A stretch of 64,000 bases of DNA from Listeria ivanovii subsp. londoniensis. GTDB lineage: Bacteria > Bacillota > Bacilli > Lactobacillales > Listeriaceae. The position numbers were made by a program, and so were the translations under genes. Below, piece after piece: positions 17,189 through 24,493 of this stretch; the first letter of the stretch is position 1; every line of letters starts with the position of its first letter. The notes below the pieces were generated by a model. The model made no database searches. It was not told the origin of the DNA and was given only the letters and a program-made list of their open reading frames with translations. Location of the stretch: positions 2,957,001 to 3,021,000 of the forward strand of contig NZ_CP009576.1 of NCBI RefSeq assembly GCF_000763495.1, read 5' to 3'.

Positions 17189-18766
17189 ATGAATTCAGAG
17201 AACCTACTTGCTCCAGAACTTTATAATATTACCGACGAGATTGCTAAATTTAGTTCTGAAAAAACGGCTTTAATTTGGAAAAATGAACATGATGAAACAA
17301 AAACTTGGAGCTACCGTCACCTGCTTGAACAAGCGAATAAGTTTGCGAATGTTGCAAAAGATGCCGGCGTAAAAAAAGGCGACCATGTTATCGTAATGAC
17401 GCCTCGCTTGCTCGAAACATATGCGATTTATATGGGCCTATGGAAAGCTGGAGCCATCATTATTCCCGCTTCCGAATTACTTAAAGCACACGATTTAGAA
17501 TACCGCATCCATCATGCTAATGTGAAAGCAATTGTTTCTTATAACGGAATGACTGCTGAATTTGATAAAATTAACGACATCCCATCTGTTGCTAAAAAGA
17601 TTATTGTTGGCGAAAAATTAGCTGGTTGGGATCATTATGAAACATTAATGGAACAGGCTTCAGTAGAATTCGAACGGGTGGAAACTTCACGCGATGATGC
17701 ATGCTTACTTGCTTTCACTAGTGGGACAACAGGTAATCCTAAAGGGGTTGTACATATTCATGGTTGGGGTTACGCGCATATTCGTATCGCCGCTGATCAC
17801 TGGCTAGACATTCATGAAGACGATATTGTCTGGGCAACTGCAGGACCCGGCTGGCAAAAATGGGTCTGGTCTCCATTCCTATCCGTTCTTGGAAAAGGTG
17901 CGACTGGTTTCATTTATAATGGCCGCTTCATTCCCGAAAAACAACTCAACTTGCTTAGCGAAGAAAAAATCAACGTCCTATGTTGTACGCCAACAGAATA
18001 TCGCTTAATGGCAAAAGTGAATAATTTGCGCGAACATGACTTAAGCTCCCTTCGCAGTGCTGTTTCAGCTGGTGAGCCACTAAACCGTGAAGTAATTCAA
18101 GTTTTCCAAGACAATTTTGACATTAAAGTTCGTGATGGATATGGACAAACAGAAAGTACATTATTGATTGGAACGCTTGTAGATACGCCAATTCGCCCCG
18201 GTTCAATGGGCAAACCAATTATGCCTGAATATATGGCGATTATTGATGCTGATGGAAACCCGGTCGGTGTTGGTGAAATCGGTGATATTGCAATGCGTAG
18301 AGATTTCCCAGCATTGTTTAAAGAATACTATAAAGAACCTGAACGCCTTCAAAAAGCGATTCGCGGTGATTATTTTGTTTCTGGTGACCGTGCGATTCGT
18401 GACGAAGATAACTATTACTGGTTCCAAGGTAGAAACGACGATATTATCATTAGCTCCGGTTATACGATTGGACCTTTTGAAGTGGAAGACGCCTTGACTC
18501 ATCACCCTGCTGTGAAAGAAGTTGCTGTTGTCGCGAGCCCTGACGAAATCCGCGGCACCGTCGTAAAAGCATTCATCGTCTTAAAAGATGGTTATGAAGG
18601 CACCGACGACCTAGTTCACGAGTTACAAACGTTTACGAAAGAACAAACCGCACCATACAAATATCCGCGCCGTATCGAGTTTACAAGCGCTCTGCCAAAA
18701 ACCGATTCTGGGAAAATTCGTCGTGTGGAATTGCGGGATGCTGAATTTGCGAGTGTGCAAAAATAG
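17189..18766 (+). CDS. Acyl-CoA synthetase, acetyl-/medium-chain acyl-CoA ligase family
   Basis: AMP-forming CoA ligase (525 aa) that activates a carboxylic acid through an acyl-adenylate. It shows the AMP-binding P-loop LLAFTSGTTGNPKGVVH (about 175), the DGYGQTES core (about 315), SGDRA and the hinge GRNDDIIISSGYTIGP (about 415), and the C-terminal catalytic Lys in SGKIRR. It resembles the acyl-CoA synthetases AcsM/MbcS rather than AcsA, suggesting medium or branched chain acids. RBS AAAGGAG seven bases before ATG. It stands alone between divergent tadA and a shared terminator; an FapR-like box links it to lipid metabolism. Confidence 0.9.
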   Translation: MNSENLLAPELYNITDEIAKFSSEKTALIWKNEHDETKTWSYRHLLEQANKFANVAKDAGVKKGDHVIVMTPRLLETYAIYMGLWKAGAIIIPASELLKAHDLEYRIHHANVKAIVSYNGMTAEFDKINDIPSVAKKIIVGEKLAGWDHYETLMEQASVEFERVETSRDDACLLAFTSGTTGNPKGVVHIHGWGYAHIRIAADHWLDIHEDDIVWATAGPGWQKWVWSPFLSVLGKGATGFIYNGRFIPEKQLNLLSEEKINVLCCTPTEYRLMAKVNNLREHDLSSLRSAVSAGEPLNREVIQVFQDNFDIKVRDGYGQTESTLLIGTLVDTPIRPGSMGKPIMPEYMAIIDADGNPVGVGEIGDIAMRRDFPALFKEYYKEPERLQKAIRGDYFVSGDRAIRDEDNYYWFQGRNDDIIISSGYTIGPFEVEDALTHHPAVKEVAVVASPDEIRGTVVKAFIVLKDGYEGTDDLVHELQTFTKEQTAPYKYPRRIEFTSALPKTDSGKIRRVELRDAEFASVQK

Positions 18767-18767
18767 C

Positions 18768-18814
18768 GAAAAAACAGAAGTTCTCTTTTAAAATTGAGAA
18801 CTTCTGTTTTTTTG
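18768..18814. terminator. Bidirectional terminator between the CoA ligase and the LXG operon
   Basis: AAACAGAAGTTCTC pairs with GAGAACTTCTGTTT around ten bases, with A-run and T-run flanks. It closes both the rightward ligase gene and the leftward immunity array. Confidence 0.92.
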
Positions 18815-18819
18815 GATAG

Positions 18820-19632
18820 TTAATCCGTATACCATTCCTCTTCCGTAAATTCATATTCTACTCTATAGTTTTCTGCGTATTTTTTATAAATATATCCATC
18901 CACCACAACAGATGCATTTAAAAGGAGGGTAGGAAGTAGCGTGATTAGTATTAAAGCTGTAATACCAATAAATATAAAAACAGCTGATAATACTGTTCCT
19001 ATGAGGGTTCCATTAAAACCCGAAAGAAACTCATAATTTGCCCCATCAATCCACCACTTATTAACCCTATAAACTTGCATTCCCACGATTACAACTACTA
19101 TAAAACTCACTAACACAGTAGATAATACCTTTACTATCTTTATTGTTCTTTTTTTCTTTATTTGCTTCCCCTCATCTGCCAGATACTTTGTCTGGATATT
19201 TTCAATAAGTTTGATTTGTATGACATAAAAGGATAGTCCATACATTAACAAAATATAAAGTGAAGCAACTATTCTATTTATAACATTACTATCTGATATT
19301 TCCAGAGAAGCTATGTAAAAAATGAGGGCTGTTTGCGTAAATAAGTAAACAGCCATTGTATATGCAGCTTTCCTGAAAAAAAGACTGCTTCTAAAGTAAC
19401 CTATGCCAATAACTACAACTATAATTGATGCCACAATAGGAAACACATACCAGTTACTCGCAGAAAAAATACATATCAGCCAAGAAATAGCAGCAAATAT
19501 AACTATCTTTAGTGACATAGGTAACAACTCTTTGCCAGTACCATTTAAAGTTTCATAGACATGGTGCAAAGAATTGCTTTTTAATGAATCTACAAATGAA
19601 ACTTGTTCTACTATTTTAGAAAATGTTCTCAT
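18820..19632 (-). CDS. Polytopic membrane protein, probable LXG-toxin immunity paralog 3
   Basis: 270-aa protein with about six hydrophobic segments. It shares with the next two genes the motif YRVNKWW (about 190), LLPTLLLNA (about 235) and the C-terminal KKYAENYRVEYEFTEEEWY. The three are clearly paralogs. Position after an LXG toxin and membrane location suggest immunity to a membrane-acting effector. RBS GGAGGAG before ATG at 19632. Last gene of the operon. The assignment is by context; no immunity family was matched. Confidence 0.7.
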   Translation of the reverse strand: MRTFSKIVEQVSFVDSLKSNSLHHVYETLNGTGKELLPMSLKIVIFAAISWLICIFSASNWYVFPIVASIIVVVIGIGYFRSSLFFRKAAYTMAVYLFTQTALIFYIASLEISDSNVINRIVASLYILLMYGLSFYVIQIKLIENIQTKYLADEGKQIKKKRTIKIVKVLSTVLVSFIVVVIVGMQVYRVNKWWIDGANYEFLSGFNGTLIGTVLSAVFIFIGITALILITLLPTLLLNASVVVDGYIYKKYAENYRVEYEFTEEEWYTD

Positions 19633-19671
19633 TGATCTCCTCCATGTCTGAATATGTGTATTTAGCGTTGT

Positions 19672-20427
19672 TTACTTTTCTCCATACCATTCTTTTTCAG
19701 TTAATCCATACTCTTTTCGAAATTCTTCAGCGTATTTTTTTATCAATCTTCCTTTAACATACTGTGAAGGTGAAAATAATAAGGTTGGCAATAAAGTAAA
19801 GCCAATCAGCAAGACCAATAGCCCGACACCCCAAATAGCATACTGTAAAAAGCCTGATGTTCCCACTGTTGTATTCATATTTATTAGCCACCATTTGTTT
19901 CCACGATAAAATAAGATAGAAATAATCACCACAGCGAGAAAAATACTTAAAATCTTAGTTATAGTCTTTGAAAATACTCTTTTTTTAGAGTTATGTATCT
20001 CCCCAAATGTCTCTTTCACATAAGTATTTGTACGAGCTCGTATAAATAAAAATGAGAATCCATAGCTTAAAATGATGTACAGTAAAGGAATAAGATGATA
20101 TGTATCTGCCTTTACTCTTAAAAAAACAATCATAAAAAATATTGCCGCGGTTTGCCATACTAGAAATAGTACCGTGTTATAATTTAATATTTTAAAAATG
20201 GGCTTAAAAGTTACATACCTTACAACTAAAATGCTTAAAAAAATTAGAGCTCCAATTAAATATATTGCGTAATAGTTTGTTGATGGAAGGCCTAATAGAA
20301 GGGCAAACAATATACTTCCCACTATCTTACCAGTGTAGGAGGATGTATGTTCTATTTTTGAATTAAGTTGCTCTATTTCCTGAGAATTAATTTTTTGCTT
20401 TGCGTTCTCATAACTCACATTATTCAT
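19672..20427 (-). CDS. Polytopic membrane protein, probable LXG-toxin immunity paralog 2
   Basis: 251 aa from the ATG at 20427 (GAGGTGG eight bases upstream; a GTG at 20439 lies inside that site). About six hydrophobic segments. Shares YRGNKWW, LLPTLLFSP and KKYAEEFRKEYGLTEKEWYG with its two neighbours, but its N-terminal domain is diverged. Loop length differs by 10-20 residues from the others, mostly in the N-terminal region and just after NKWW, where the toxin-facing surface might lie (inference). Confidence 0.7.
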   Translation of the reverse strand: MNNVSYENAKQKINSQEIEQLNSKIEHTSSYTGKIVGSILFALLLGLPSTNYYAIYLIGALIFLSILVVRYVTFKPIFKILNYNTVLFLVWQTAAIFFMIVFLRVKADTYHLIPLLYIILSYGFSFLFIRARTNTYVKETFGEIHNSKKRVFSKTITKILSIFLAVVIISILFYRGNKWWLINMNTTVGTSGFLQYAIWGVGLLVLLIGFTLLPTLLFSPSQYVKGRLIKKYAEEFRKEYGLTEKEWYGEK

Positions 20428-20526
20428 TATTTTTACCACCTCGGGATACCATTGTTGAAATCTTCTACGTCAAGAGTAAATCCCATTTCTCTTTACTGAA
20501 ATTTATATCCCAGCTTCTTTCAATAA

Positions 20527-21324
20527 TCACTCAGTATACTTCTCTTTTTCTGCCATACCATTTTCTTTATGGAATTCTTCTGCATACATTTTTAACAAAA
20601 TACCTTCTGAAATTGTTTTTGCATTAAATAATAAAGTTGGCAATAACGAAAAAACAACCACAAATGCTATTAGTAAAACCCCACCAACTAAAACTATTAA
20701 AGTTCCCAGCCATTCATTTTGAATAGATACTACTCCCGGCGAGCTGTCATTTCCAATGAACCACCATTTATTTAGCCTGTATATTTGTGTTCCCAAGACA
20801 ATAGCCACTAATAAACCAATTGAAAGTTTCAAAAAAATTTTATTCCATACTTTAGGTACTGCAGTTTTTTTAAAATTTATACCGTTGTTTTTCAAATAAT
20901 TTAGCATCATAGCTTTACATCGGAAAAAGCAAAGCAAAGCAACCACAAACAAATAACATAGTGCTACTAAAATATAAAACTTTCCGAAAGGCCTATTACC
21001 ATCAATTCTTATACCTAATAGCATACTTATTGTAATAGTTTGAATCATTAAGTATTTCGCCAACTGCCATCCAAAATCTCCCAAAATTCTATCACTAGAT
21101 TTCAAAGTTAAATAATAGATATAACTTATAGATATAATTATTATAAGAATGCATGTTATAATTATTGAATTCTGCAAAGGTAATAAAGCCACAAAGCCAC
21201 AAAACAAGGCAAGTATAAACAGCTGTAACCCCCTTGAAATGGTACTTTTTTTCGCTTCTTTTTCTCCTATATCTACTAATTTTTCAGCTTCTTTAAAAGA
21301 GATTTTACTCATTATAGTTTTCAT
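20527..21324 (-). CDS. Polytopic membrane protein, probable LXG-toxin immunity paralog 1
   Basis: 265 aa, about six hydrophobic segments, and directly downstream of the LXG toxin gene (42 bases), the usual place of the cognate immunity gene. Motifs YRLNKWWFIG, LLPTLLFNA and KMYAEEFHKENGMAEKEKY match the paralogs at 18820 and 19672. GGAG seven bases before ATG at 21324. The most likely true partner of the toxin; the other two may protect against variant toxins of other strains. Confidence 0.72.
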   Translation of the reverse strand: MKTIMSKISFKEAEKLVDIGEKEAKKSTISRGLQLFILALFCGFVALLPLQNSIIITCILIIIISISYIYYLTLKSSDRILGDFGWQLAKYLMIQTITISMLLGIRIDGNRPFGKFYILVALCYLFVVALLCFFRCKAMMLNYLKNNGINFKKTAVPKVWNKIFLKLSIGLLVAIVLGTQIYRLNKWWFIGNDSSPGVVSIQNEWLGTLIVLVGGVLLIAFVVVFSLLPTLLFNAKTISEGILLKMYAEEFHKENGMAEKEKYTE

Positions 21325-21366
21325 TTAAGAACTCCATTTCTGTCAGTGGATTTATGAAAATTAATA

Positions 21367-22980
21367 TTATTCACTTTGAATATTCGGATTAAAGTTAGGA
21401 CTCCCACTGTGTGGTTTCACTCCTATCCTATATGCCTTGTCCGTGGCTATACTCTCGTGTTTTCCATACTGTTCATATACTTTTTTCAGCCATTTTTGTT
21501 TGTTTTTTTCTTTCTCTTTCGAATTGCCACTTAAGCCCAAATAAAATTTATACGAACTTATATCAATTTTCCCAAAAGTAGTATTTATATTAATCTCAGG
21601 AGTAGTTATATCCACCCCTTTGATTATTGTATTCACTGTTCCAGCTACGGCCCCAAAAGGTCCGCCATATTGAGCACCTTCTAATGGTCCAACATTCCAT
21701 AAAAACAAGCTTAATCCCCCATATACCGCTTTACTTGCGTCTCCATATGCGGGACTTTTTGGATTGGTAAATTCATCATAAGCATAAGCTGTCACACTTA
21801 GCCCATCACCTATATAACCAACGCTTTCTCTCGCAACAGGATGAGCTTTAACAAACTCAGAAACCGGCTTTAATTTTTTAAACAAATCAAGCCCTACCTT
21901 AGAGCTAGCTATGAGTTTAGCCCCTTCACTAGTCTTAGAAAGAATTTTAGTTGTATATCCAATTGGTGCAAGTACGCTCCAACCCTTTTCGCTTAATTTA
22001 ATTAGTCCGCCATAAACAACAGCTTGCGTCGCCATCGATGCTTCACTAATATAAGAAGCAAATTTCGGACTATTCAGGACTTTTACAGCTGTATCTTTTG
22101 GTAACTTATTCCAGCTCTCTTGCGCAATGAAGATGCCAAGTGCCGCATTTTGAATACCTTCTGGAAACTTATCTAAAGCTCCTATTACATATCCAAATAA
22201 ACGATCATTATTTTTAATTTTCTCAATCGCTGCCATTGGATTTTTCTCATATAAATCATTTATCTCTTTAATTGCTGCTTTCTTTGCCTTCTCTTCCATT
22301 TCCTTTTGTTGTTTTTTACTTTTTAATTCTGTAAACCAACTTTTATCCAAACCTACAGGCAATTGATATGTTCCATCGGCGTTTACAGTAGTGCCATTTA
22401 AAACTAAAACCCCCTGCATAGCTAACTTCATTTCATCTAAGCTACTAGTAAAAAGTTCTTTGGTTTCTGCATCAAACTCACGTAATTTCTCTATCTTCTT
22501 CTGCAACTCATCGATATCTTGTTGAAGATTATCTGACATTTGATCTAATTCTCTCCAATGATCCGATGCTGCATCCGATAGAGCAGCGACTACACTTGTC
22601 TTTATCACCTTCATAAACATGGATGTGCGTTCTACTGATTCCTTCATATTTCTTTTCGTCTCGATTTGTTCCTGTAAGTTATCTTCATCTAAATATCCCT
22701 CACTTGAAACATCCAAATCAGCCGCCTTATATTTCTGTAATTCTTGATTAAGCGTATCGCAAGCTGATGTTACCTTTGTAATTGTCGGTAAAATAAGATC
22801 CATAAACAAGCCTTTCCCTGCTGTATAAGCAGTTCCTGACAGTGTATGACCATCTACTGCTTGGATAATCTTTTCGCTTCCGATTTTTAATTTATTAAGC
22901 GCTTCTTTTCCACTTGTTAAGTTTTTAGATAAAGCTTGTATCAATTTCTCTGAATCTTCACTTGAATAAATCAGTCCCAA
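21367..22980 (-). CDS. LXG-domain type VII secretion toxin with C-terminal glycine zipper
   Basis: 537 aa. Residues 1-200 fit an LXG domain: long helices and the hallmark around HTLSGTAYTAGKGLFMDLIL (45-64), with coiled-coil 145-175. The middle is helical. Near the C-terminus GAQYGGPFGAVAG (about 435-447) is a run of GxxxG steps, a glycine zipper, in a hydrophobic stretch, followed by a polar tail. No nuclease or NADase motif is seen. Zipper LXG toxins such as streptococcal TelE act on membranes. The start is TTG at 22980 after AGAGGTGA, overlapping the preceding gene by ten bases. The secretion machine itself is not in the window. Confidence 0.85.
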   Translation of the reverse strand: MGLIYSSEDSEKLIQALSKNLTSGKEALNKLKIGSEKIIQAVDGHTLSGTAYTAGKGLFMDLILPTITKVTSACDTLNQELQKYKAADLDVSSEGYLDEDNLQEQIETKRNMKESVERTSMFMKVIKTSVVAALSDAASDHWRELDQMSDNLQQDIDELQKKIEKLREFDAETKELFTSSLDEMKLAMQGVLVLNGTTVNADGTYQLPVGLDKSWFTELKSKKQQKEMEEKAKKAAIKEINDLYEKNPMAAIEKIKNNDRLFGYVIGALDKFPEGIQNAALGIFIAQESWNKLPKDTAVKVLNSPKFASYISEASMATQAVVYGGLIKLSEKGWSVLAPIGYTTKILSKTSEGAKLIASSKVGLDLFKKLKPVSEFVKAHPVARESVGYIGDGLSVTAYAYDEFTNPKSPAYGDASKAVYGGLSLFLWNVGPLEGAQYGGPFGAVAGTVNTIIKGVDITTPEININTTFGKIDISSYKFYLGLSGNSKEKEKNKQKWLKKVYEQYGKHESIATDKAYRIGVKPHSGSPNFNPNIQSE

Positions 22981-23333
22981 GGAATTTCACCTCTTTGCTT
23001 GTATAATATTTCACGTTCATCATCAGCTTGAACTATTTCTTTTTTAAAGACACTGGCAAATTGTTCTTTAGCATCCATTACTCGCTGCCGAAATCTTCTT
23101 TCTTGATCGTCCGTTCTCTGTTGTATTTGAAAGAAATCTGATTGTCTTTCTTTTACATTTTCATCATTCAACATTCTTAACTTCTGATAGCCTCTTTGAA
23201 AATCTTCTTCTAATTGATAAAGTAATCTTTCTACTTTTTGTTTTTCTTCTCTCAGCTTATCCAGCTGATTTTCTTTTTGAATAATTTGTTGGGTAAAAGC
23301 TGCCCGTTCTTGTTCGTGTGTTTTCTCTCTCAT
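22971..23333 (-). CDS. DUF3958-like coiled-coil partner of the LXG toxin
   Basis: 120-aa, highly charged, almost wholly alpha-helical protein. Residues 10-95 form a long coiled coil (QLDKLREEKQKVERLLYQLE). This fits the DUF3958-type targeting factors encoded just before LXG toxins, which bind the LXG domain and steer it to the EssC/YukD machine. The second ATG (23333) is favoured as AAGGG lies nine bases before it and abuts the first ATG (23342). Ends in ...EIPWD, overlapping the toxin start. Confidence 0.8.
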   Translation of the reverse strand: MREKTHEQERAAFTQQIIQKENQLDKLREEKQKVERLLYQLEEDFQRGYQKLRMLNDENVKERQSDFFQIQQRTDDQERRFRQRVMDAKEQFASVFKKEIVQADDEREILYKQRGEIPWD

Positions 23334-23345
23334 TATTTTCATCCC

Positions 23346-23603
23346 TTAAAATTTAATCTGACTGTCTTGTAAATCCATCATTTTAGCGATTTTAGGAAAC
23401 TTTTCACTTTGTTCCTGAACACAATTTATTAAATCTACTAAATCTGTTAACAATTGATTGTTAAGCTTTTTCCCGGATTTCATGCTAGAAAGGTTGCTCT
23501 TATCCAAAGAAACTTGTTCACCCATATCTACAGAAACTGTTGTTACATCAGATACTGCCGTCTGCGCTAAACCTGAATTTGAAGCAATATTCACCATTTT
23601 CAT
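23346..23603 (-). CDS. WXG100-like small partner (TIGR04197 type) of the LXG toxin
   Basis: 85 aa, first gene of the operon. It starts MKMVNIASNSGLAQTAVSDV and has a helical C-terminus (LTDLVDLINCVQEQSEKFPKIAKMM). Length, position and the early SNSGLA pattern fit the TIGR04197/DUF-type chaperones placed before LXG toxins (such as streptococcal LapA type). AAAGGG precedes; either ATG at 23603 or 23597 is possible. A TAAAAT-type -10 lies near 23640 on the minus strand. Confidence 0.75.
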   Translation of the reverse strand: MKMVNIASNSGLAQTAVSDVTTVSVDMGEQVSLDKSNLSSMKSGKKLNNQLLTDLVDLINCVQEQSEKFPKIAKMMDLQDSQIKF

Positions 23604-23708
23604 TATCCCTTTCTGTTTGTTCTATTTATATGAAACTATTTTAACATAAAAATAATGCATTATATACTCACTTCTATTCGCTAATTAGCTGCTTGTCATT
23701 TTTATAAA

Positions 23709-23746
23709 CTAAAACATGGCTAGCAAGCGCTAGCCATGTTTTTTTA
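23709..23746. terminator. Terminator of the NagB-like gene
   Basis: AACATGGCTAGC pairs perfectly with GCTAGCCATGTT around AAGC, with T-run on the plus strand and A-rich flank. It overlaps the stop codon of the gene at 23744 and isolates it from the LXG operon. Confidence 0.85.
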
Positions 23747-24463
23747 AATATTCAACTCACTCGCTGCTTCCTCATCCAACACTACTGTAAAATTAGGATG
23801 CAATTGGAAAATCGAGCTTGGGATGTCCTCGGTAACTTCACCTTGTAATGCTTTTTTAATAATAGCTGCTTTTTTCTTTCCATTTGCGAACATAATTACT
23901 TCTTTCGCATGCATAACACTTTTTGGACCCATTGTTACATAGTTTTTTGGTACGTTCTCTGGATTGCCACCAACCTCATCAAGCAAAACGTCGAACATAC
24001 TTGGTAAGGAATCAACTGAAACAAGCCTAGTTTCATCGCCAAATTTAGTGACACCTGGAAGATTTCCACAAAAATGACCATCTTCGCCAATACCAATTAA
24101 AATTGCATCCAGTCCACCAACATGTTTTAAATGCGCCTCATGCTCGGTATAGTTTTTTGTATCAAGCACATGAATCTGCTCTTCTGGAATTCCCGCTGGA
24201 TCAAAATACATTTCTTTTAAATTACCAACTGTCACACCAAATTTTTCTTCCCCAATTGGAATTTCATCAAAATTATAATAGCAAACATTTTTAAGCGGTG
24301 TCTTCTCACGCATTTCACTCACCAGCATCTCGTACATTCGTTTTGGTGTAGAGCCTGCCGTGATGGCCAAATGTACTTCCTTATCTTGATACATCTTCCC
24401 TAAAAGCAGCTGCATTGTAGTTTTACTCATATTTTCATAATCTTTTTCGATAATTATTTTCAT
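23744..24463 (-). CDS. Glucosamine-6-phosphate isomerase / 6-phosphogluconolactonase family protein
   Basis: 239 aa of the NagB/SugarP isomerase fold: N-terminal AITAGSTPKRMYE phosphate loop (about 37), NFDEIP (about 68) and GIGEDGHFCGNLPG (about 130), which corresponds to the NagB active site GIGxDGHIAFNEP but with a diverged end. So it acts on a phosphosugar, but the exact reaction (deaminase or lactonase) is open. Start ATG at 24463 after GAGGTG; the longer GTG frame includes the ribosome site. It is divergent from a MerR gene, and its promoter has a MerR-type 19-bp spacer. Confidence 0.82.
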   Translation of the reverse strand: MKIIIEKDYENMSKTTMQLLLGKMYQDKEVHLAITAGSTPKRMYEMLVSEMREKTPLKNVCYYNFDEIPIGEEKFGVTVGNLKEMYFDPAGIPEEQIHVLDTKNYTEHEAHLKHVGGLDAILIGIGEDGHFCGNLPGVTKFGDETRLVSVDSLPSMFDVLLDEVGGNPENVPKNYVTMGPKSVMHAKEVIMFANGKKKAAIIKKALQGEVTEDIPSSIFQLHPNFTVVLDEEAASELNI

Positions 24464-24493
24464 TTTTTTCACCTCTCACTTTGAATTACCTTT

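Follow-up and report, generated by a model that had tools for sequence, protein, structure and literature searches.

A Listeria LXG toxin whose polymorphic tip co-varies with the adjacent membrane protein gene, and a likely bank of immunity genes behind it

Introduction

Why would one toxin gene be followed by three different genes for membrane proteins of the same kind? The question is raised by a six-gene operon in the 3.05 Mb chromosome of Listeria ivanovii subsp. londoniensis (NCBI RefSeq assembly GCF_000763495.1, contig NZ_CP009576.1; source genome G000 below). The operon lies within the 64,000-nt stretch from 2957001 to 3021000, which we refer to as the window, and encodes two small proteins, an LXG toxin and three paralogous membrane proteins, here named imm1, imm2 and imm3 with increasing distance from the toxin. 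A first-pass annotation, made from the sequence alone, had described a TelE-type toxin with tandem immunity copies held as an arms-race bank. By the comparison presented here, the locus is quite likely to be an LXG toxin-immunity island of type VIIb that keeps a bank of immunity genes, a reading that includes export of the toxin, its action on the cell envelope and distinct roles for the three membrane proteins.

Results

The toxin tip changes with the next gene

We surveyed 25 Listeria genomes, one per species and the source genome among them (G labels; stretches cut from them carry L labels). A profile built from the three window paralogs matched 46 places in 14 of these genomes, and a search with the toxin C-terminus found 11 places in nine, the window's own toxin included. 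At all 11 toxin loci the gene following the toxin is a member of the immunity family, which is present in 9/9 genomes with the toxin class and in 5/16 without it (Fisher p = 0.001). The membrane proteins are thus tied to the LXG toxin and do not behave as a housekeeping family unlinked to LXG genes.

Across the 11 pairs of toxin and first immunity gene, the more alike two toxins are in their C-terminus (from residue 318), the more alike are their immunity proteins (r = 0.83, p = 5e-5, the permutation limit of a Mantel test with 20000 permutations), whereas the LXG half shows this weakly if at all (r = 0.13, p = 0.17); once the LXG part is controlled for, the C-terminus retains a partial r of 0.84. 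Because the pairs share ancestry, the Mantel p serves as a guide, the actual control being the contrast between both halves within one set of proteins. In blocks of 40 columns, r does not exceed 0.33 as far as residue 399; it is 0.37 at 380-419 and 0.70 at 400-439, reaches 0.91-0.97 across residues 420-507 and is 0.69-0.71 at the extreme end. Natural swaps are seen in three pairs (G000/G011, G015/G003a and G003b/G002), in which the LXG halves share 98-100% identity and the immunity genes 21-33%. In the sequences compared, toxin tip and next gene change together, and through this co-variation the locus has the variable C-terminus and neighbouring immunity gene of an LXG polymorphic toxin.

A mosaic tract and a scar

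The G000/G011 swap can be followed nucleotide by nucleotide. G011 carries the same operon at the same site; the LXG half of its toxin is 99% identical to that of the window, the tip is different, and the next gene is an ortholog of imm2 (98% identity), followed by an imm3 ortholog split by a stop and, last, by an imm1-like gene (80%). With G011 and G020 as references, 153/168 informative sites from 23603 to 21874 match G011, 187/204 from 21873 to 21367 and 68/72 from 21345 to 20850 match G020, and 23/24 from 20849 to 20527 match the orphan imm1 of G011. The first breakpoint lies inside the toxin gene at 21846..21874 (residues about 369-379), with the switch between informative sites 21874 and 21846, and the second inside imm1 at 20776..20791, near the YRxNKWW codons, with the switch between informative sites 20791 and 20776. 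Fisher p values for the two are 1e-75 and 9e-18, with block limits that were chosen post hoc. A G020-like tract of ~1.05 kb, made up of the toxin tip and two thirds of imm1, is therefore set between G011-like flanks.

Ahead of imm2, at 20433..20473 on the minus strand, stand the last 41 nt, stop included, of a G011-type toxin gene. From 20473 to 20401 the window is identical at 73/73 nt to L062 7233-7305, where the G011 toxin gene ends and its imm2 starts. This scar carries the likely ribosome-binding site of imm2, which would explain why it has been kept. Judged by the scar together with the gene order of G011, the toxin of the window's ancestor most likely carried another, G011-type tip, with imm2 as its partner. 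A comparable arrangement is found in G002, where 28/28 nt of a G003b-type toxin-gene end precede a retained imm2-like gene that stands behind a new immunity gene; for the G015/G003a swap, neither a retained copy nor a scar lies within the stretch compared. These comparisons indicate that the toxin tip and its antidote were exchanged together and that the antidote of the displaced toxin was kept.

Because of the mosaic tract, the scar and the position of imm2 directly behind the toxin in G011, imm1 is most likely the cognate immunity gene and imm2 most likely the retained immunity gene of the displaced toxin. The imm1 gene (20527..21324, minus strand; 265 amino acids (aa), six predicted transmembrane (TM) helices) is the first past the toxin and belongs to the same clade as the immunity genes that come first behind the four toxins most similar to that of the window. 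The imm2 gene (19672..20427, minus strand) has an open frame of 255 aa and yields 251 aa from a better-placed ATG at 20427.

The LXG toxin

The toxin gene (21367..22980, minus strand, TTG start) encodes 537 aa, divided into an LXG domain at about 12-201 (PF04740 in Pfam, residues 12-201, E = 1.9e-14), a conserved core at about 220-420 and a polymorphic tip at about 420-537, which co-varies with the next gene. The glycine zipper noticed at first pass bears scrutiny: residues 431-447 (21640..21690, minus strand) form an exact five-step ladder GxxxGxxxGxxxGxxxG (G431-G435-G439-G443-G447), a run that arises in 0.1% of whole-protein shuffles and in 0.2% when the C-terminal 220 aa alone are shuffled. 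The ladder is equally exact in 10/11 toxins of the class: G431, G435, G443 and G447 are invariant in 11/11, and G439 is replaced by alanine in G002 alone. Past it, six columns are invariant in the 11 toxins, namely N450, W497, L498, Y502, Y505 and G526.

Beyond the LXG domain, Pfam and NCBIfam returned weak stray matches to the window toxin (best E 0.026). NCBIfam applied to all 11 toxins gave WXG100_ESAT6 in eight (best E 1e-4) and otherwise single stray matches, one of them to SecA at 3.4e-5, and a toxin profile compared with solved structures found nothing meaningful (best E 2.5). The family search that the first-pass annotation had proposed for the toxin end and the membrane proteins thus produced nothing convincing in Pfam or NCBIfam, and so no match to a known enzyme family.

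The membrane immunity family

Gene order, sizes, motifs and paralogy are as first described, all on the minus strand. The other two membrane proteins share 31% and 26% identity with imm1, and YRxNKWW, LLPTLL and a KxYAE tail are common to the three. Over 37 members of the family there are on average six hydrophobic segments, with summed lysine plus arginine of 19.9 in inside loops versus 3.1 in outside loops. Because these residues are concentrated in the would-be inside loops, both ends of the proteins are probably inside. YRxNKWW sits after TM5 on the predicted outer side, and conservation is highest in the tail past TM6 (mean 0.60).

Searches of Pfam, NCBIfam and PADLOC gave the family only weak and inconsistent matches. 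Among the Pfam matches listed (the best 25 of 57 families), the commonest was DUF4064, which was weak (5/37 members, best E 0.0013), and the strongest was ThrE, which was inconsistent (3/37 members, best E 3e-5). Candidates for single proteins were no better: KwaA at 0.0013 (PADLOC) and AmaP at 0.0073 (NCBIfam) were found for imm2 alone, both weak and inconsistent, and a weak DUF2101 match at 0.0039 (Pfam) for imm1. The immunity profile had no meaningful match among solved structures (best E 0.38), and hhalign against membrane proteins at Listeria DUF5085 loci gave probabilities of 6.8% and 0.9%. Relatives of imm1 were found neither on plasmids nor on phages, those of imm2 not on plasmids and those of imm3 not in viral contigs. 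We also searched 397 other Bacilli genomes, scoring six immunity candidates per genome: nine had weak, partial matches (15.7-24.6 bits), which we read as chance, and the toxin C-terminus had none at E <= 0.001 (0/397). Across the 25 Listeria and 397 other Bacilli genomes, the immunity family was seen only in Listeria.

Distribution and upkeep of the likely bank

Of the 46 immunity places, 39 entered the tree; the seven left out are a broken imm3 ortholog and a tail fragment (L062), a tail fragment (L054), two broken pieces (L064) and two partial genes (L066). A second alignment of 37 rows also dropped two L065 rows with N. Toxin-adjacent members fall in the imm1 clade, the imm2 clade, a G002/G008b clade and a G003a clade, and the imm3 and a2 clades have none. 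The imm3 gene (18820..19632, minus strand, 270 aa) is accordingly an orphan immunity paralog among the 39 sequences.

The operon is flanked by an acyl-CoA synthetase-like gene (17189-18766) and a glucosamine-6-phosphate isomerase-like gene (23744-24472), which we take to be acs and nagB and to correspond to lmo2720 and lmo2721 of EGD-e. Beside acs, six genomes have nagB directly and hence an empty site (G005, G012, G013, G016, G017, G019), four have toxin and immunity genes (G000, G003, G011, G020), and four have immunity genes only (G002, G018 and G022 with nagB behind the array, and G024, where nagB was not detected). In G015, whose scaffold contains runs of N that make its gene order (L065, L066) uncertain, toxin and immunity genes stand behind nagB; eight other species have neither nagB nor an island gene in the short acs flank, and two genomes have no acs match. 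The survey of LXG alleles and immunity copy number suggested at first pass thus yielded, besides the 11 toxin loci and the 46 immunity places, toxin-less arrays by acs in four species. A single family member is present at 5/11 toxin loci (L057, L058, L060, L063, L068).

The ratio of nonsynonymous to synonymous rates (dN/dS) is 0.12-0.30 among the toxin-less copies a1-a3 and 0.08-0.15 inside the a4 clade, which holds one toxin-adjacent gene. It is 0.18-0.20 between retained and cognate imm2 copies, on few changes (window imm2, 0.195 on 12 changes), and 0.14-0.35 for cognate pairs versus 0.08-0.30 among non-cognate copies overall. Purifying selection on the non-cognate copies thus appears no weaker than on the cognate ones, as expected of working immunity genes. 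The idea of an arms-race bank gains from these values, from the toxin-less arrays and from the position of imm2 behind the displaced toxin in G011, and needs amending in one respect, as the copies differ in kind, with imm1 as the likely cognate gene and imm2 as a probable former cognate that was retained.

Free-standing fragments of the conserved tail (profile 239-267) occur at L054 4594-4680 (G001) and L062 10458-10544 (G011), each shortly upstream of an intact family gene, and are likely leftovers of recombination. There is also a second site, beside a gene labelled by eye as dehydrogenase-like, which has the toxin class in G002, G003 and G012 and family members alone in G005 and G022; G024 shares one flank only (stretches L055, L057, L063; L059, L070, L072). 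At G005:C2:53079-55827 (L059) an LXG gene from a different class is followed first by a 151-aa gene, which may be that toxin's own immunity gene, and then by a family member.

Small partners, operon limits and secretion machine

The six co-directional genes span 18820-23603 on the minus strand with intergenic spacing, in operon order, of 3 nt, a 10-nt overlap, 42, 99 and 39 nt; because they are so closely spaced, one shared transcript is likely. At the head is the gene of small partner 1 (23346..23603, minus strand, 85 aa; 95% ortholog in G011), followed by that of small partner 2 (22971..23342, minus strand, 123 aa), which has the 10-nt overlap with the toxin start and shares 39% identity over 123 aa with a 123-aa gene preceding another LXG gene of the same genome. 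Both are presumed LXG-associated export partners by their position and size and by this 39%-identical counterpart. Neither had a convincing family match in Pfam or NCBIfam, nor had three orthologs of each in NCBIfam, so the earlier labels 'WXG100-like' and 'DUF3958-like' were not confirmed.

Strong inverted repeats bound the operon at both ends. The one at 18769..18812, with 17-bp arms and a T run on both strands, is a likely two-way terminator, and the one at 23711..23742, with 14-bp arms, is a likely terminator of the upstream nagB-like gene. The promoter and terminator scan found 15 promoter-like sites, fewer than the shuffle mean of 22; the two long repeats were missing from its output and come from a separate analysis.

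In the source genome an open frame of 1499 aa encodes EssC. A short EssC-like fragment (L137 2363-2566; G000:C1 about 122363-122566), 97% identical to G024 EssC over 68 aa, lies about 11 kb past this complete essC.

Discussion

A proposed mechanism and its alternatives

We propose that the small partners would guide the toxin to the EssC machine of the same genome, and that the secreted toxin would act from outside on the envelope of neighbouring Listeria through its glycine-ladder region. The cognate protein imm1, with six helices and both ends inside, could recognise the ladder or tip region at the membrane and block the toxin, while imm2 and perhaps imm3 would protect against kin still carrying other tips. 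Use against rival bacteria is probable, and membrane attack is plausible. Since no DUF5085 antidote was found at the locus, the toxin is predicted to harm from outside only, as reported for TspA, which is toxic only from outside and has a single kind of membrane antidote (PMC9484751, PMC12744356).

Several observations weigh against this proposal. The C-terminal part of the 11 toxins is weakly hydrophobic, the best 19-aa Kyte-Doolittle mean being 0.81-1.09, versus 1.51-1.87 in three Listeria LXG toxins adjoining DUF5085 genes; membrane insertion seems less obvious for these toxins than for the DUF5085-locus class, and the low hydrophobicity therefore counts against simple TelE-like insertion. 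The two breakpoints may stem from one event or from displacement followed by a later exchange. No partner toxin for imm3 turned up in the 25 Listeria genomes, and the long branches G008b_1 and G014_2 are placed uncertainly in the immunity tree. Finally, the 11 toxin/immunity pairs are related rather than independent, and coverage of one genome per species leaves strain-level variation unseen.

The alternative that survives best, although we hold it to be rather unlikely, is that no channel is formed and that the toxin strikes another envelope target from outside, such as cell-wall precursors or a membrane receptor, which the immunity proteins would shield. The LXG toxin TelC is said to act outside the cell. 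The low hydrophobicity would suit such a target, as would a pre-ladder core that is more conserved than the tip, and TelC is a lipid II phosphatase (PMC9484751). However, four of the five glycines spaced at i+4 are invariant, enzyme families gave no convincing match, the six invariant post-ladder columns include no typical charged catalytic residue, and the membrane-depolarising toxins TspA and EsxX of type VII secretion systems (T7SS) are paired with polytopic immunity proteins (PMC9484751, PMC12744356).

Local tandem duplication (for dosage or through drift) rather than toxin displacement is quite improbable as the source of the copies. Their tandem arrangement, same orientation and common tail agree with duplication, the tail fragments of G001 and G011 suggest recombination at the tail, and imm3 is without a known partner toxin; yet identity to imm1 inside the array is just 26-31%, each copy is closer to relatives in other species, and the scar derives from a different toxin allele, so that for imm2 duplication is already disfavoured. 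Still a little less probable is a single obligate hetero-complex of all three membrane proteins against one toxin, on the pattern of ExiC and ExiD, which are both needed against EsxX from outside (PMC12744356). The co-directional, closely spaced genes would allow it, but by gene count two different membrane proteins are not required, unlike ExiC/ExiD, as five of the 11 loci have one member; moreover, the paralog clades match different toxin tips and a toxin scar precedes imm2. Chance placement of housekeeping membrane proteins behind a toxin gene, which their lack of a convincing family match might suggest, is scarcely credible and already disfavoured by their patchy presence (14/25 genomes, 9/9 with and 5/16 without the toxin class), their absence beside acs in six genomes and their co-variation with the toxin tip.

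Comparison with known systems

The closest parallel to the window locus appears to be TspA-TsaI of Staphylococcus aureus (PMC9484751, PMC12744356), with immunity families that are apparently unrelated. In both, non-identical genes for polytopic membrane immunity proteins form a tandem array behind a polymorphic T7SS toxin, with a toxin-gene fragment inside the array, there is one kind of membrane antidote, and the membrane is the reported (TspA, depolarising) or supposed (window) site of action. TsaI is a DUF443 protein of about five TM helices and is conserved at its start (PMC9484751, PMC12744356), whereas the window family has six predicted helices and is most conserved at its end. Pfam gave no DUF443 match for the window proteins, and hhalign against eight Listeria DUF443 proteins gave 0.4%.

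EsxX-ExiAB/ExiCD of S. aureus ST398 (PMC12744356) likewise combines an LXG toxin bearing a glycine zipper with polytopic membrane immunity proteins and has orphan immunity genes in toxin-less islands. It differs in that EsxX is countered by soluble DUF5085 proteins (PMC12744356), whereas the window class has no DUF5085 match at its 11 loci, and in that single family members often stand alone. The three window proteins had no Pfam match to ExiC/ExiD (DUF5079/DUF5080) at E <= 1, and these families were absent among the matches listed (best 25 of 57 Pfam families) for 37 family members; the two families also matched nothing in 41 genomes of one other family or in controls, and the comparison had no reference alignment. 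TelE-TipE of Streptococcus gallolyticus (PMC10434224) is similar in its LXG toxin, C-terminal glycine zipper and several alleles across strains, and different in that TelE is countered by the soluble DUF5085 protein TipE, a six-pass protein adjoining telE having given E. coli no protection (PMC10434224).

The assignment of the window toxin to the TelE type is not supported: the 11 loci gave no DUF5085 match, no C-terminal homology to the Listeria DUF5085-locus toxins compared was found, and the zipper is less hydrophobic. DUF5085 was found at six places in the 25 Listeria genomes; the source genome's one gene lies ~1 Mb off, beside another LXG gene. The 11-toxin profile, compared with three Listeria DUF5085-locus toxins (TelE and EsxX were not in the comparison), matches just the first 222 residues of one, for which hhalign against the toxin class gives a probability of 0.2%. 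The source genome has a second glycine-rich LXG locus at L091 4594-8324 (G000:C1 about 1957593-1961323). It comprises genes for a 123-aa partner, for an LXG toxin with the first ~220 aa in common with that of the window, for a membrane protein of 340 aa and for two proteins of 149-150 aa, one of which matches DUF5085. By its gene content it looks like the EsxX/TelE arrangement in Listeria.

The history that we suggest has a counterpart in type VI secretion clusters of Vibrio cholerae, where an incoming effector-immunity pair takes the place of the resident effector, whose immunity gene is retained behind the newcomer, and where a shifted-back 3' end of a former effector is described as well (PMC5361080). 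Those are type VI effectors, whereas in the window toxin the exchange is confined to the C-terminal portion, and the likely ribosome-binding site for the retained imm2 lies within the scar. L. monocytogenes, of the same genus, has chromosomal hotspots in which LXG genes are accompanied by immunity genes and by one or two small partners (PMC10327511); the passages considered describe no glycine-zipper toxin (the term is not in the main text), no tip-swap scars and nothing that could be recognised as the present immunity family. The literature searched contained no recognisable description of this immunity family or of LXG tip-swap scars; the toxin may be catalogued in the supplement of PMC10327511 or in its reference 22.

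Few T7SS membrane antidotes are known, and the locus would add to them an immunity family without a convincing Pfam match. It is also a well-preserved record of an arms race: two alleles have a near-identical LXG half and core, different tips and their own next genes, and a 41-nt scar precedes the preserved antidote to the tip that was lost. With the alleles of the window and of G011 occurring naturally, what a membrane immunity protein recognises can be tested without engineering. We tentatively suggest, as something possible rather than probable, that a Listeria-restricted family recognises a short polymorphic tip by the ladder while the toxic core stays constant; that tip and immunity gene would move as a cassette of ~1 kb between two homologous blocks, the toxin core and the YRxNKWW-to-tail part; and that orphan immunity genes would both shield the cell and offer new tips a landing site.

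Counterparts of the S. aureus system may be present in the genus as well. DUF443 was found above the cut-off in four Listeria genomes (G007, G008, G014, G024), at several places near LXG matches, and at G014:C1:135227-138561 an LXG match is followed by three tandem DUF443 genes (L121, L127, L128). These LXG/DUF443 neighbourhoods look like TspA-TsaI-like loci in Listeria.

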